Positions 13,074 through 23,446 of a stretch of DNA of 64,000 bases are shown piece by piece. The first letter of the stretch is position 1, and the number at the start of each line of letters is the position of its first letter. Position numbers and translations under genes: made by a program. Source of the DNA: a bacterium (GTDB lineage: Bacteria; B130-G9); NCBI GenBank assembly GCA_035527515.1, contig DATLAJ010000132.1, positions 1 through 64,000 of the forward strand. Direction: 5' to 3'. The notes under the pieces are model-generated. The model was not told the DNA's origin, did no database searches, and was given only the letters and a program-made list of their open reading frames with translations.

Positions 13074-14834
13074 CTACTTCATCACGACCAGTTCGTGCAT
13101 CATCTCAGGTTCTAGGGGCTTAGCTAGCCTGACAGGAGTTTGGGCCATGAGAGGGCCATGCGCAGTCCAGTTACCGCTCGTGTCGATGTCGACTAGATAG
13201 TAGTAGTACGTTGCGCCCTGCCTCACATTTGTGTCCATGAACGAATAGTCTGCGCCCGCGGCGGCAAACGCTGTTGCAGGAATGAACTCGCTTACCTTGC
13301 TACACCCGGTAGCCTCGCCATCGCAACGATATACTAAGAAACCGGCGTTGTCGATCTCGGTTGCTGTCTCCCAGCGCACGAGAGCTTTGTTGAAGCCGGC
13401 CTCAACCGTGAACGAGGATAGCTCGATGTAGTTCATTCCATACCAATCGTAGTGGTAGCCTAGATCGATCCTGTAATGGTCGTCATGGTTGTTTCCGTCG
13501 TTGCACCAGAAATCCTTGTCCTCCACAGTGCTCAAGTGAACGCTATACCTCGTGTCCTTGCCCTGGCCGGTCGTGGTGTTGACGAACTCGCAATGTCCCT
13601 GGCCCCACTCGTCAGTGTAGGCTGGAATCCCTGCATCGAGGCAAGGGCTGTTCTCGGAGAGGAAGTAGAACGTGGAGTTACACGGCCTCTCCTCATCCTG
13701 GTCGCCCTCAAACTCCGGGCGCTGGTCAATGTTCCCTGTGCCCGGATAGGGCGAATTGGTCCCTGTCATCTGAACATCTGAGTACATAACCTCGATGTTA
13801 CTGTGGATGTTTACGTCGTCGAATCCCGGCGGACCGTTGAAATAGACGATGTTGTGGATCATCCTCAACCAGTAGCCCTCCGTGTCGCAGCCCTTAATGC
13901 CATAAACATCCAGAGTAGGCGGGCCGCCAGCGGCATCCTTGCCATACGTCGGCATATTGTCGTCACAATGATAGTTGTCAACAACTGTGTTGTTCTTGGC
14001 GTAAACCCGCGCGCAGTTGCTCTCGATGCCCGCGCCTGCGCCCTCTGTTCCCACGCAATTCTGGCGTATCAGGTTGTTCTGGACCTCGCTGCTGTTGTGA
14101 TCGCCGGAGACCAAAATGCCGCCGCCCTGAGCCTGGGCCTCGTTCCAGAAAATGCAGCAGTCTCGAACGTAATAGCCCTCATAGGTGTTAGATGCAGCTG
14201 GCCACATCAGGAAGATGCCGCCGCCGCCGCCGCCCGCCCCCGCGGCGTTCCCCGGAGCTCTGTTGTCCCAGATACAACAGTTTGAGATAACGCCGCAGCT
14301 GTACTCCCAAGCCATGCCACCACCTTTGGCGTAGCTTGTGTTATTGGTGATTTCCAAGTCAAACATCACGATGTCAACGTTCTCATCACCGTCGGTCCCA
14401 ACCACCCTGATGCCGCCACCGTTGCCGGTCGCAGACCCGTCAGAGACCTTGAAGTTCTTGATCGTGATGTCCGAGCAGTGTTTGATGACGGTGATCCGGC
14501 TCTGGCCGTCGCCCTGAAGCCAAGGACCATGGCTACTCTGACCGTAGCCCAGCATGGTGATGCCCGTCTTGCTGTCGATGTTTATCGGATACGACTGTTC
14601 ACCCCCGTTGGACACGGCCTTGTACGTCCCGTTGGCAATGTGTATCGTGTCCGCTCCGCTGACACAAGCGCCAACCGCGGCCTGTATCTCGGCGAACGCG
14701 TTGCCCCAACTGGAGCCATCGTTCGCACCAGCACCCCCCACAGAGACGTAGTAGTTTGCCGCGCTGACGTAGCCGATCGCGATAAGCATCAACAGGACGG
14801 ATAGAAAAGTCGTTAGTATCTCTCTTCTAATCAC
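13074..14834 (-). CDS. Secreted right-handed beta-helix protein 1
   Basis: A 586-residue exported protein of unknown function. Residues 1-25 form a signal peptide (LSVLLMLIAIGYVSA). The mature N-terminus NYYVSVGGAGANDGSSWGNAF is followed by parallel beta-helix coils rich in GGGI/GGGM and N-N-x-[IV] steps. The last ~120 residues form an Fn3-like module (ALVRWETATEIDNAGFLVYR) shared with the proteins at 15080-17464 and 21788-23446. The start is GTG at 14834 with AGGAGA upstream. It is the third gene of a minus-strand set after another beta-helix gene and a 39-aa peptide gene. Polysaccharide binding or degradation or a surface-adhesin role are both possible for this fold; no catalytic residues are recognised. 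Confidence 0.8.
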   Translation of the reverse strand: MIRREILTTFLSVLLMLIAIGYVSAANYYVSVGGAGANDGSSWGNAFAEIQAAVGACVSGADTIHIANGTYKAVSNGGEQSYPINIDSKTGITMLGYGQSSHGPWLQGDGQSRITVIKHCSDITIKNFKVSDGSATGNGGGIRVVGTDGDENVDIVMFDLEITNNTSYAKGGGMAWEYSCGVISNCCIWDNRAPGNAAGAGGGGGGIFLMWPAASNTYEGYYVRDCCIFWNEAQAQGGGILVSGDHNSSEVQNNLIRQNCVGTEGAGAGIESNCARVYAKNNTVVDNYHCDDNMPTYGKDAAGGPPTLDVYGIKGCDTEGYWLRMIHNIVYFNGPPGFDDVNIHSNIEVMYSDVQMTGTNSPYPGTGNIDQRPEFEGDQDEERPCNSTFYFLSENSPCLDAGIPAYTDEWGQGHCEFVNTTTGQGKDTRYSVHLSTVEDKDFWCNDGNNHDDHYRIDLGYHYDWYGMNYIELSSFTVEAGFNKALVRWETATEIDNAGFLVYRCDGEATGCSKVSEFIPATAFAAAGADYSFMDTNVRQGATYYYYLVDIDTSGNWTAHGPLMAQTPVRLAKPLEPEMMHELVVMK

Positions 14835-14888: not shown

Positions 14889-15008
14889 CTAACAATCGAC
14901 TGCGCCGCCGAAGCCTGTGCACGAAAGTGATGGTCCAAGCTGGGACATCAGCTCCCTGCTCCCAAGCGTTATAACCTTCGGCGCCTCATAGGTTGTTTTC
15001 TCTGTCAT
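14889..15008 (-). CDS. 39-residue peptide, RiPP-precursor-like
   Basis: A short gene between two beta-helix genes on the same strand. The frame reads MTEKTTYEAPKVITLGSREL at the N-terminus and ends PSLSCTGFGGAVDC, then TAG. GGGAGA lies about 9 nt before the ATG. The leader-like part fits Y-x2-P-x-[LV]-x3-G (YEAPKVITLG), the leader motif bound by the RiPP recognition element in lasso-type and related clusters. The C-terminal part is Gly/Ser/Cys-rich with two Cys nine residues apart, as in a modified core. No B, C, radical-SAM or protease gene lies in the window, so it would be an orphan precursor or a peptide matured elsewhere. Lasso cores usually need Asp/Glu at ring position 7-9, which is not obvious here. 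Coding status rests on the ribosome-binding site, location and motif. Confidence 0.55.
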   Translation of the reverse strand: MTEKTTYEAPKVITLGSRELMSQLGPSLSCTGFGGAVDC

Positions 15009-15079
15009 CGTCGTTTTTCTCCCTTCTCGTGTTAAGAAATGCTCTTGAATTACCTTCAGTTCACAAGTTCACAAAGAAT

Positions 15080-17464
15080 CTATCTTGCGGTTCCTATCTT
15101 GATCGGTGCGAGGTCGCTGTGGGGCTCCCCGTCGCCCTGTAGCGACGGGAGGTCAAGTGAGTATGGTGTGGCACTCACAGGCTCGTGAGATGTTACGTTG
15201 CCCTTCGTGTCGATGTCACATAGGTAATAGAGATACGTTGTCCCGCTTACAACGCCTGTATCGACAAAGGAATACGAGGCGCCGCCACCGGCCGTCCCCC
15301 GCCCCGAAATGAGCGAGCTATTCACCTTCACTAGACTGGCGCCGCCTTCTTCCTTCCGGTAGATGTCGAAGCCAGCGTTGTCTATCTCAGTCGCCGTTGT
15401 CCAGCTCAAAAGAACTCTCTTGTTAAGCCCTTTGGCATTGAACGACACGAGCTCGATATAGGTTGCGCCCTCGTGGAGATAGTGATAGCCCATGTCCATG
15501 TCGCCGGTGTCGTTCTCGGCGTCGGTTCGCGTGCAATACTCGTTTGTGAAATACGCTGCCGCAGTTGTTGAACCTGCGTCAACACAAGGGCTATCGGGGG
15601 GGCTCTGGCCAGCCGCAGTCTGGCTGAGGAAATAGCCCTCCGGGTATCCCCTCGCTCCGGCCAATGGCACGAACAACGGTTCCTCGTTCATATTATCGGA
15701 CCCAGTCCCCGACCAGCCGCCCTGGATGTCGCAGTAGAAAAGCTCGAACGTCGCGCCTCCTGGGGTTACACTAGTTCCGTTGCCCCAGATGATTGTGTCC
15801 CAAATCCAGACGTTGCCCAGGACGCCCTTGATGCCACAGTCCGGATGGTCGGCGATCGTCAAGTTCCTAATGGTAAGGTCTGCATTGCCTACGACCTCGA
15901 TGCCAACGCCCTGATCATCATTGCCATTGCTTGAGAAGATCAGGTTGTTGAATAGCGTAACACTCCCGCCGTTCACCAGAATCCCGTCGCCTCTGTCGGT
16001 GGCGTCATTGTCCCAGATGCCGTTGTCCTGCACAGTGAAGTTGGAGGAATTGGTCAGACACAAACCGCCGCCGCGATTGGCCGTGTTGGCCCAGAGATTG
16101 TTATTGTCGAAAGTGCTCCCTGTGTCTCCACTCTTGTATCCATTCTTGAAGTAAGCGCCGCCGCCCTCGTCGCCTGCATCATTGTGATGGATCCAGTTGA
16201 TGGCGAAAACAGCATGACCGGAGCCCGCGGCATAGTCCTCCTCGCAGTAAATACCTCCGCCCGCCTGATCTGCGTAATTCCATCCTATCCAGTTGTTCTC
16301 GACGCTGGCCTTGCTTTTGTAGCCGAAGATCGCTCCACCGTTCAGCCCCGCGGCCTGGTTCCAGAAGAGCTCGTTGCCTTCGATAACGGGCTCGCACCCG
16401 ACTCCATTGATGTACATCCCGCCGCCGCTCGTGTCCGCCCAGTTCTCAGCTATCTCGTTCCAGCCGTCGATAAGTGGATCGGAGTTGCCAGTCATGTATA
16501 TCCCGCCGCCTGCGTAGGCGTGGTTGCCAGGGCCATAGTGATAATTAGCGAGGGTTGCGCGTATCTGGTTGTGTTCAATGTGCGGACTTGAGTTCTTGAG
16601 GTATATCCCGCCGCCGTAACCGGAATCGTCAGGACTTGCGATGTTCCCGAGGATGTAGCAGTCCTTGATCAGCCCGCCGGCGTCCTCCATGAATATCCCG
16701 CCGCCGTGACATCCCTGACCGTCCCCGAAGAATGTCTCGTTATGCTGAATGAGACAGTCAACGATGTTCACGGTGGTATCATTGTCAGCGGCAATACCGC
16801 CCCCGTAGTTCGCCTGGTTCTCCTGGTTCTCATTACCGATAATGCAGCTGGTTATGTCAACGTCGCCCCCCGGGTAATTCGGGCTTCCTACTTTGATCCC
16901 TCCACCTCGCGTTACAGTTCGACACGCCTCCACCACGCAGTTGTCCACCGTAACGTCCGCGGCCGCGGTGTAAATGCCGGCCCCATCGTCGTCGCTCCGA
17001 CCATCACGGATCGTCAGCGTCGAGATGGTTACGTCATTGAGGTATTGCGCGAAGCCGATAACCTCGAAAAGCCCGAGCTCTTCCTCACCAGAACTTGCCC
17101 AGTTGCCGTAAGACACAATTGTTGAGTCGCGATCGTCTCCAATAAGCCAGACGTGTTGGAGCTGGCGTTCTGACCAGCTAATTGGGAAATCCTCGTCGTC
17201 CGAGCCGCCTGTCGTGTACGTGTAGGTGCCCGGCGCAACGTGGATGATGTGCGGGTTGGCCCATGTCCCATCGGTCGGAACTGTGTCGATCGCATACGAG
17301 ATCGTTCGCCATGCGTCGACTGCGCTCGTTCCGGTGTTGCTGTCGCTCCCACCGGTCGATACGTAAAAATCGTCGGCGCTGACCAACATCGTCGCAAATG
17401 TAACGATCAAAGTGCAAACCACAAAGATCGTCGTCAGAAGAAACTGCCTGTCTGCTCGATACAT
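15080..17464 (-). CDS. Secreted right-handed beta-helix protein 2
   Basis: About 794 residues from the preferred ATG at 17464, which has GAGGAAGG upstream; the frame is open to an ATG at 17509 that would put extra charged residues ahead of the signal peptide. Residues 1-30 are a signal peptide ending MLVSA. The mature start DDFYVSTGGSDSNTGTSA parallels protein 1, followed by a long series of beta-helix coils (GGGIY, GGGMY, N-NW-I steps) and a C-terminal module (RVLLSWTTATEIDNAGFDIYR) homologous to the other two beta-helix proteins. No catalytic motif is recognised. It is upstream of the 39-aa peptide and protein 1 and probably leads their transcript. Confidence 0.8.
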   Translation of the reverse strand: MYRADRQFLLTTIFVVCTLIVTFATMLVSADDFYVSTGGSDSNTGTSAVDAWRTISYAIDTVPTDGTWANPHIIHVAPGTYTYTTGGSDDEDFPISWSERQLQHVWLIGDDRDSTIVSYGNWASSGEEELGLFEVIGFAQYLNDVTISTLTIRDGRSDDDGAGIYTAAADVTVDNCVVEACRTVTRGGGIKVGSPNYPGGDVDITSCIIGNENQENQANYGGGIAADNDTTVNIVDCLIQHNETFFGDGQGCHGGGIFMEDAGGLIKDCYILGNIASPDDSGYGGGIYLKNSSPHIEHNQIRATLANYHYGPGNHAYAGGGIYMTGNSDPLIDGWNEIAENWADTSGGGMYINGVGCEPVIEGNELFWNQAAGLNGGAIFGYKSKASVENNWIGWNYADQAGGGIYCEEDYAAGSGHAVFAINWIHHNDAGDEGGGAYFKNGYKSGDTGSTFDNNNLWANTANRGGGLCLTNSSNFTVQDNGIWDNDATDRGDGILVNGGSVTLFNNLIFSSNGNDDQGVGIEVVGNADLTIRNLTIADHPDCGIKGVLGNVWIWDTIIWGNGTSVTPGGATFELFYCDIQGGWSGTGSDNMNEEPLFVPLAGARGYPEGYFLSQTAAGQSPPDSPCVDAGSTTAAAYFTNEYCTRTDAENDTGDMDMGYHYLHEGATYIELVSFNAKGLNKRVLLSWTTATEIDNAGFDIYRKEEGGASLVKVNSSLISGRGTAGGGASYSFVDTGVVSGTTYLYYLCDIDTKGNVTSHEPVSATPYSLDLPSLQGDGEPHSDLAPIKIGTAR

Positions 17465-17965
17465 GCTGCCTTCCTCTTCTTGAGTTTGATAAAGTTTTTC
17501 GTATCGCATTCCGATACATTAGAGGTGGGAACCATTGCGTCTCGTCGGGGTACCTCCAAACAGATGCGCTCGCTCCCGCTTCCGCACAAAGTATTACCAA
17601 TTTTTGTGCAGGTGTCAAGTTCCGCTCTCATAGGCAGTTTTTGGCAAGTCTCAAGCGACTCTCCGCCGCCATTCTCCCCCCAAGTCCGGAGCGTTCGCGC
17701 AAGATTCAGCTAATTAAACCCACGTCCGAGTCCGATAAGCTTGAGTTAGCTCTGAATCAGTGCCCTGGAACTCGACAATGCAGACAGCATGGCCGGGCGA
17801 GGCAAGTTCAGGCTAGCACGCCCTAACGACAGTAAGCTGTTGCGTGATAACCAATAGCGAATCCCGGGACATTCGAGCTGATATACAACCCTCGATGGCG
17901 ACATAACCAACCAAAAGATCGAATCCGCATCAAGCACTAGACCGGATTCTGGGGGAGAGTCTCGG
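17465..17965. other. Intergenic region upstream of beta-helix protein 2
   Basis: About 500 bp between the beta-helix gene start and the PCMT stop, both on minus. I see no supported gene and no recognised repeat. The beta-helix promoter should lie here. Confidence 0.45.
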
Positions 17966-21787: not shown

Positions 21788-23446
21788 ATGTACTGTTATC
21801 GAGAGATGAGATTGGCGCTCGCCACCATCATCATGATGCTCACGATCATGGTAGCTGGCGCCATGGGGGCAAACGTCTATTATGTTGATGGAAATGTAGG
21901 AAGCTCGGGCGGCGGCTCCAGCTGGGCCAACGCCTTCGAGACCATTAAGGAGGGAATCGACGCCTGCAATACTGGTTCCTCGGGGGGTCCAGACTTAGTC
22001 AAGGTCGCGGGTTCAACATCCGGATTGACCTACGAAGAGAACATCGTGCTCGACAGCTACATTACGCTAGAAGGTGGTTGGGACCCTGGCACCGATACAC
22101 GCGACCCTGAGGCTTATGAGAGTATCATTGACGGCTGCGCTGCTGGCACAGTTGTTATGATTGACTCCAAGTTCGGCGTGAGGATTGATGGCTTCACGAT
22201 TCAGAATGGGAGCGCGGGCTACTATGGCGGCGGGATATACTGCTACTACAGTTCGGCGACGATCACCAACAACGAGATTACGGCAAACTCCGCGGGCTAC
22301 GGCGGCGGCGGGATATACTGCTACGACAGTTCGCCGACGATCACCAACAACGAGATTACGGGTAACTCCGCGAACTATGGCGGCGGGATATACTGCTACG
22401 ACAATTCGGCGACGATCACCAACAACGAGATTACGGCAAACTCCGCGGACAACGGCGGCGGGATATTCTGCTACTACTACAGTTCGGCAATGATCACCAA
22501 CAACGAGATTGCGGGTAACTCCGCGACATACAGTGGCGGCGGGATGCGCTGCTACTACTACAGTTCGCCGACGCTGATCAACAACGAGATTACGGGTAAC
22601 TCCGCGACATACAGTGGCGGCGGGATGCACTGCTACTACTACAGTTCGCCGACGCTGACCAACTGCACGATTGCCGACAACGTGGCGTCTTCTGGCGGGG
22701 GGATGTACTGCAATGATTACGAATGCGAGCCGGAGCTTTTGAACTGCATCCTTTGGGGCGATAGCCCTGACGAGATTGCCGGAGACACGACCAACCTCAC
22801 CGTCACCTACTCCGATGTTGAGGGTGGCTGGACAGGGACCGGGAACATCGGCAAGGATCCGTTGTTCGTGCCGATATCCGATGCGCCGTACTACTTGGCG
22901 CACACAGGCGCTCAGGCGGCCAACAGCCCCTGCGTGGACGCCGGAAGCGGAAGCGTCTCCGACTACGGCCTCGAGGGCACCACCACATGCACCGACGGTC
23001 GCGAGGATGGCGAGGATGGCAATGATGACGGCGACCCTTACACCGGGCCGATAGACATGGGCTACCACTATCCAGCAAAGGGATACTCGGGGAGCGGGGA
23101 CACCTACATCGATCTGGTGTCTTTCACTGCCAGGCCGGCTGGCTCTAGTGTCGTGCTCGACTGGGAGACCGGAGCCGAGATCGACAACGCCGGGTTCGTC
23201 GTCTATCGGGCGGTCGCGGGGACATTTGACTACGAACAGATTAGCGACCTGATCGCCGCTGAGGGCGCACCAGCCTCGGGTGCCTCATACAGCTTCATCG
23301 ACCGCGATGTTGAGCCGGGCGTCAGTTACAACTATTGGCTGGTTGACATCGACACCAGCGGCAAATGGACTGCACACGGGCCAGCGACCGCGAGGCTGAG
23401 CCTTCGACCGGTCGGCCCAAGAGGTCTTCACGAGTTGTGTATGTAA
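21788..23446 (+). CDS. Secreted right-handed beta-helix protein 3
   Basis: A 552-residue exported protein. A signal peptide covers about residues 1-28 (LATIIMMLTIMVAGAMGA); ATG 21788 has AAGGAG four bases upstream, and ATG 21806 is an alternative start. The mature start NVYYVDGNVGSSGGGSSWAN matches proteins 1 and 2. From about residue 144 to 302, seven near-identical coils of about 23-26 residues repeat GGGI/M-YCY-x-SS-x-TITNNEIT-NSA. The C-terminal module (SSVVLDWETGAEIDNAGFVV) is shared with the other two. Unlike them it is on the plus strand and alone. Function unknown; the fold suits carbohydrate contact or adhesion. Confidence 0.8.
   Translation: MYCYREMRLALATIIMMLTIMVAGAMGANVYYVDGNVGSSGGGSSWANAFETIKEGIDACNTGSSGGPDLVKVAGSTSGLTYEENIVLDSYITLEGGWDPGTDTRDPEAYESIIDGCAAGTVVMIDSKFGVRIDGFTIQNGSAGYYGGGIYCYYSSATITNNEITANSAGYGGGGIYCYDSSPTITNNEITGNSANYGGGIYCYDNSATITNNEITANSADNGGGIFCYYYSSAMITNNEIAGNSATYSGGGMRCYYYSSPTLINNEITGNSATYSGGGMHCYYYSSPTLTNCTIADNVASSGGGMYCNDYECEPELLNCILWGDSPDEIAGDTTNLTVTYSDVEGGWTGTGNIGKDPLFVPISDAPYYLAHTGAQAANSPCVDAGSGSVSDYGLEGTTTCTDGREDGEDGNDDGDPYTGPIDMGYHYPAKGYSGSGDTYIDLVSFTARPAGSSVVLDWETGAEIDNAGFVVYRAVAGTFDYEQISDLIAAEGAPASGASYSFIDRDVEPGVSYNYWLVDIDTSGKWTAHGPATARLSLRPVGPRGLHELCM
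22218..22692 (+). repeat. In-frame DNA repeats encoding beta-helix coils
   Basis: Units of about 66-75 bp recur seven times with very high identity; conserved blocks are GGCGGCGGGATATACTGCTA and ATCACCAACAACGAGATTAC. All unit lengths keep frame. Such near-identity suggests recent unequal recombination or slippage, so copy number may vary between cells. Confidence 0.85.

Follow-up and report, generated by a model that had tools for sequence, protein, structure and literature searches.

Among described systems, those closest to the locus analysed here are the PqqD/rSAM-SPASM RiPPs (sactipeptides, ranthipeptides, SynChlorMet and HPr-rel-A), with which it has in common an RRE-type leader, PqqD, a radical SAM (rSAM) enzyme of the SPASM type and an HprK-like protein. 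PqqD-type RREs recognise leaders by a YxxP-like motif in several RiPP classes, of which lasso peptides are just one (PMC12710340), and for the rSAM enzyme PqqE the trans-RRE is a separate PqqD (PMC8326336). In the prochlorosins (ProcM/ProcA), a single enzyme acts on the products of many precursor genes, which may be spread across the genome (PMC10783134). Since RiPP genome mining usually starts from the modification enzymes, precursors scattered far away are missed. The present study concerns a small peptide gene within a 64,000-nucleotide stretch of DNA (the window). Judging from comparative genomics, the source of all the evidence presented here, the gene probably (probability roughly 0.8) encodes the precursor of an rSAM RiPP matured in trans, one enzyme set serving many dispersed pairs of precursor and partner.

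The 39-aa frame was found on the minus strand exactly where the preliminary description of this DNA had placed it. It translates as MTEKTTYEAPKVITLGSRELMSQLGPSLSCTGFGGAVDC and is a real gene. The Shine-Dalgarno sequence, the Y-x2-P-x-V leader motif and the two flanking beta-helix genes on the same strand, all reported in that description, were likewise recovered (Table 1). The genes read in the order 809-aa protein, peptide, 586-aa protein, separated by about 72 and 55 bp, and both neighbours begin with N-terminal signal-like segments. Neither Pfam nor NCBIfam has a family for the peptide or its relatives.

Table 1. Coordinates of features at the peptide locus (window numbering).
Feature	Position	Strand	Basis
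Precursor peptide gene, 39 aa, stop included	14889..15008	-	Translation, family comparison, dN/dS
Shine-Dalgarno AAGGGAG, 10 nt 5' of the peptide ATG	15019..15025	-	Sequence
Leader motif Y7-x2-P10-x-V12, presumed PqqD (RRE) docking site	14973..14990	-	Y7 and P10 conserved across phyla; YxxP an RRE motif in PMC12710340; docking presumed
Presumed core region G25-C39, GPSLSCTGFGGAVDC	14892..14936	-	Conservation; leader/core boundary presumed
Upstream secreted beta-helix protein, 809 aa, FnIII tail at 15167-15457	15080..17509	-	Pfam Beta_helix match, tail domain search
Downstream secreted beta-helix protein, 586 aa, FnIII tail at 13140-13427	13074..14834	-	Pfam Beta_helix match, tail domain search, tail fold prediction

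Six further relatives of the peptide were found in the window's genome (G000), on five other contigs; five are full length (E 1e-15 to 2e-7) and one is a fragment (E 5e-4). Among the 60 genomes searched, the sole matches outside G000 came from three genomes of the same family, G001-G003, with 2, 5 and 15 matches. Named records placed this group of four in Candidatus Coatesbacteria. A homologous ORF at the syntenic position, whose absence from close relatives was to count against the gene, is present in all four genomes, each time between the same two genes, both for FnIII-tailed secreted proteins, and the copy in a sister genome differs from the window peptide by a single residue. As judged from the four syntenic orthologues, the family is under purifying selection: dS is far above dN, and third codon positions take most of the changes. 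SD-like motifs precede all 25 copies examined. The family consensus consists of a YE-x-P-x-V leader and a core that hardly varies, GPSLSCTGFGGxxxC. When 27 full-length copies were aligned, the invariant residues were P10, G25, S29, T31, F33 and G34, and the nearly invariant ones Y7, E8, V12, T14, P26, S27, C30, G32, G35 and C39; the first core Cys is kept in 25 copies and the last in 26. Residues Y7 and P10 are kept across phyla. The YxxP motif alone proves nothing, because 12 of the 435 short ORFs in the window also carry it near their start. A variable core had been expected at the outset; the core turned out instead to be the most conserved part of the peptide. Two leaderless, truncated core copies (L030:576-632 and L043:4192-4260) adjoin contig regions with beta-helix-like ORFs; they have no FnIII-tailed partner gene and are probably decayed genes.

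All 27 full-length Coatesbacteria peptides have, on the same strand and no more than 1.1 kb away, a gene whose product ends in one FnIII domain; in 22 cases the distance is at most 123 bp. The peptide may lie upstream or downstream of its partner, and a few copies overlap the partner's end. An AlphaFold2 model of a partner tail domain reached a pLDDT of 93.8, and its Foldseek matches were mainly FnIII domains. Among the partners scanned were beta-helix proteins, a papain-like protease (L034:8526-9803), C25 proteases and C25-propeptide proteins; thus, the FnIII tail is the feature common to them. Position between two beta-helix genes, at first taken as the key context, was dropped in favour of the FnIII tail once the papain-like and C25 partners had appeared. 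The proposed tie to surface proteins thereby survives as a genetic association, with an FnIII C-terminal domain and not the beta helix as its common denominator. G000 has 12 FnIII tail domains. Some FnIII-tailed proteins have no peptide, so that the pairing is strong when counted from the peptides but incomplete when counted from the partners. One FnIII-tailed secreted protein of a repeated beta-helix-like type is encoded in the window itself (21788-23446, plus strand), and no peptide of the window kind was found beside its gene.

The peptide had been called an orphan, with no modification gene nearby and with maturation by enzymes encoded elsewhere as one option. Locally the term is apt: neither PqqD nor SPASM matches occur on the window's contig. 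Genome-wide it does not hold. The suggested check for RRE and rSAM genes revealed, in each of the four Coatesbacteria genomes, a single pair of neighbouring PqqD matches above cut-off, located in a single-copy cassette: one is a free-standing PqqD of about 90-96 aa, the other a PqqD-rSAM-SPASM fusion of 462-463 aa. An HprK-like gene comes next in all four (the G003 copy is cut by the contig end), then a large C25-type gene in G000, G001 and G002, with PorU as the best named family in G000, and then an S24/S26 signal-peptidase-like gene in G000 and G002. The other contigs end earlier, several cassettes being cut in this way. The cassette proteases carry signal-like segments. A simple motif for the catalytic Cys found no match in the C25 proteins of G002 and of G044 (see below), and none of the cassettes had a recognisable gene for a dedicated peptide transporter. 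The rSAM enzyme has a CxxxCxxC motif and seven further Cys, all ten of which are invariant in the seven orthologues compared. No precursor was seen beside the maturase in the Coatesbacteria cassettes, so that within this group the link between peptide and maturase rests on homology and co-occurrence.

A link of a different kind came from outside genomes. A blind profile, built from Coatesbacteria peptides only, was run on 386 genomes and gave just one convincing match beyond the four Coatesbacteria genomes, in G140 (E 2.5e-5). The matching peptide, ..YEAPKVITYHEDDILEELGPAQACTSPCPAP, is encoded between genes for PqqD and for a PqqD-rSAM protein, after which comes an HprK-like gene truncated by the end of the contig; the rSAM is 34% identical to the Coatesbacteria maturase over 453 alignment columns. 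Full-length orthologues of the maturase (E below 1e-50) are present in 7 of the 386 genomes: the four Coatesbacteria, G140, G190 and G044. The chance of the lone blind match landing in one of the latter three is 3/382 = 0.008. The G190 precursor, ..YIPPEVITYSSDEILEELGTVQACNSYDSSC.., adjoins the rSAM gene; no stand-alone PqqD or C25 gene was found by that gene, and the HprK-like protein of this genome is without the canonical P-loop pattern. The G044 precursor, ..YVQPEVITYTNDDVIKHLGPAQACSTTPC.., lies inside a cassette that reads PqqD, precursor, secreted protein, PqqD-rSAM, HprK-like, C25, S24/S26-like. G140, G190 and G044 represent two other small phyla, and in each of them the cassette holds a precursor of the window type. 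An FnIII-tailed secreted protein is encoded in the cassette region of all three, the one in G140 being the only one found genome-wide. Since these cassettes contain both precursor and FnIII-tailed protein, they support the idea of maturation by enzymes encoded elsewhere, as does the presence of one cassette per Coatesbacteria genome. The four Coatesbacteria genomes are related and do not count as four independent events; a later profile search (A3) included the outside precursor sequences and is not an independent test. Profile matches with E above 0.001 in G261, G168, G159, G051, G052, G154 and G211 were taken as chance, and the loci in G261, G168 and G159, when scanned, had no matching short ORF.

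A relative of the peptide, MRYEPPLIITIDNAVLAAAIGPSISCTGFGGAVNCD, was observed on a phage contig, at L087:6007-6117 (JAFDGR010000001.1) and L091:8007-8117 (IMG/VR UViG_3300033148_005052), the two records being identical over more than 8 kb. Its start codon overlaps the stop codon of a 950-aa gene (TAATG), and matches to endolysin and phosphoesterase families are close by. The deltaproteobacterial bin to which the contig was assigned had no full-length maturase; rSAM matches were partial (24-33% identity), the PqqD domain was never fully covered, and the stretch around the two best matches had no precursor of the window kind. A search of a phage collection returned a chance match only.

In the mechanism we propose, the YxxPxV leader would dock on the PqqD domains, and PqqD would present it to the rSAM enzyme. 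The modification is inferred from the class of this enzyme, which may cross-link the core at SCTGFGGxxxC, most likely via one or both of the conserved Cys; the simplest chemistry would use these residues as in sactipeptides or ranthipeptides. A cassette protease could cut off the leader near LGP, and the FnIII-tailed protein of the neighbouring gene would then be what the product works with, or on, outside the cytoplasm. A core nearly fixed across paralogues speaks for a single product with one job, and the neighbouring partner gene suggests that this job is with the FnIII-tailed secreted protein. Binding, joining and co-expression alone are each a possibility for the relation between the two. 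A bolder version, which we rate as rather unlikely, has the PorU-like C25 protease acting as a sortase that joins the rSAM-made peptide to FnIII-tailed secreted proteins as a surface tag or anchor, most tagged proteins bringing their own precursor gene.

Maturation in trans by the rSAM cassette has to be weighed against other readings of the same data. The modified peptide might be kept in the cell as a cofactor or signal, like mycofactocin or PQQ, its closeness to secreted-protein genes reflecting shared regulation only. The nearly fixed core would suit such a role, and among NCBIfam families the maturase matches the mycofactocin rSAM best (TIGR03962; 130 against a cut-off of 265 bits, hence under it). 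However, up to 15 copies per genome, their pairing with FnIII-tailed secreted proteins and the signal-like segments of the cassette proteases speak against it, and we consider this reading unlikely. Less credible still is a small protein that goes unmodified and has no relation to the rSAM cassette, for instance a chaperone or effector for the neighbouring secreted protein: it would account for the frequent, close pairing with a partner gene, but not for the RRE-type leader motif, the relatives inside three rSAM cassettes or the co-occurrence of peptide and maturase across 386 genomes.

A lasso peptide precursor, served by a B1/B2/C set elsewhere in the genome, had also been entertained, and YxxP is the leader motif of lasso peptides too (PMC12710340). 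Contig C54 of G000, the genome in which B2 and cyclase genes were searched, has a lasso-type set (L072:1132-4815) of HprK-like, B2, PqqD and cyclase-like genes, with no obvious precursor alongside. Against this, ring positions 7-9, counted from G25, lack Asp and Glu in all 27 cores, and a lasso identity was rejected for lack of this ring-closing residue; moreover, a third PqqD match above cut-off is absent from G001-G003, and the peptide's relatives sit in rSAM cassettes. We regard the lasso reading as very improbable. As for a chance ORF or a cis-regulatory leader peptide, the small size and intergenic position of the frame and the presence of YxxP in other short ORFs (see above) would be in keeping with either, whereas the many conserved copies and their substitution pattern, the occurrence both upstream and downstream of partners and the relatives in other phyla make this the most far-fetched of the readings, with a negligible likelihood.

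Precursors paired with FnIII-tailed secreted proteins and served by one common cassette point to a RiPP that may serve the cell surface, not competition. In this uncultured phylum they also provide a system that can be tested, and two other phyla have compact versions, each in a single operon, that a laboratory host could express.

The general hallmarks of PqqD/rSAM-SPASM RiPPs are found here: the precursor is short and has a conserved leader motif, the same genome encodes PqqD and an intact rSAM-SPASM enzyme and, in G140, G190 and G044, a precursor is encoded with its maturase. Within this kind, the system is set apart from the named subfamilies because maturase, HprK-like protein, PqqD and C25 protein all score under the respective cut-offs; for the maturase this applies to all 25 NCBIfam families listed. 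Conserved core Cys are present as possible thioether donors, as in sactipeptides and ranthipeptides, but the maturase falls short of StsB (128 against 625 bits) and of PapB (83 against 340). The HPr-rel-A families gave 52.6 against 200 bits (TIGR04352) and 29.7 against 35 (TIGR04353), both under cut-off. Mycofactocin, the best-scoring named rSAM family, has a conserved core as well, but here there are many copies per genome and the core ends in Cys. Prochlorosins rely on a class II lanthipeptide enzyme and variable cores, as opposed to an rSAM enzyme and a nearly fixed core. The YxxP leader is common to lasso peptides and the window family, whose cores are without the acidic ring residue. With type IX secretion the resemblance lies in the cassette C25 protein, which is most like the PorU sortase, at 259 bits in G000 and 284 in G044, under the cut-off of 420. 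No T9SS sorting domain (TIGR04183) was found on the window's partners; the secreted protein of the G140 cassette (L122:2264-3490, G140:C103) has an FnIII domain and, after it, a T9SS type A sorting domain (35.7 against a cut-off of 23 bits). In papers searched, a scope that most subscription journals fall outside, the string 'LGPAQA' did not occur, and the only paper returned for the combination of PorU, sortase, type IX secretion, radical SAM and RiPP was without the term 'radical SAM'. The papers and family libraries searched contained no description of dispersed precursors beside FnIII-tailed proteins with a single cassette. It is this layout, precursors dispersed and paired with FnIII-tailed secreted proteins and a PorU-like C25 protease following the cassette, that distinguishes the Coatesbacteria system from the PqqD/rSAM-SPASM RiPPs it otherwise resembles.
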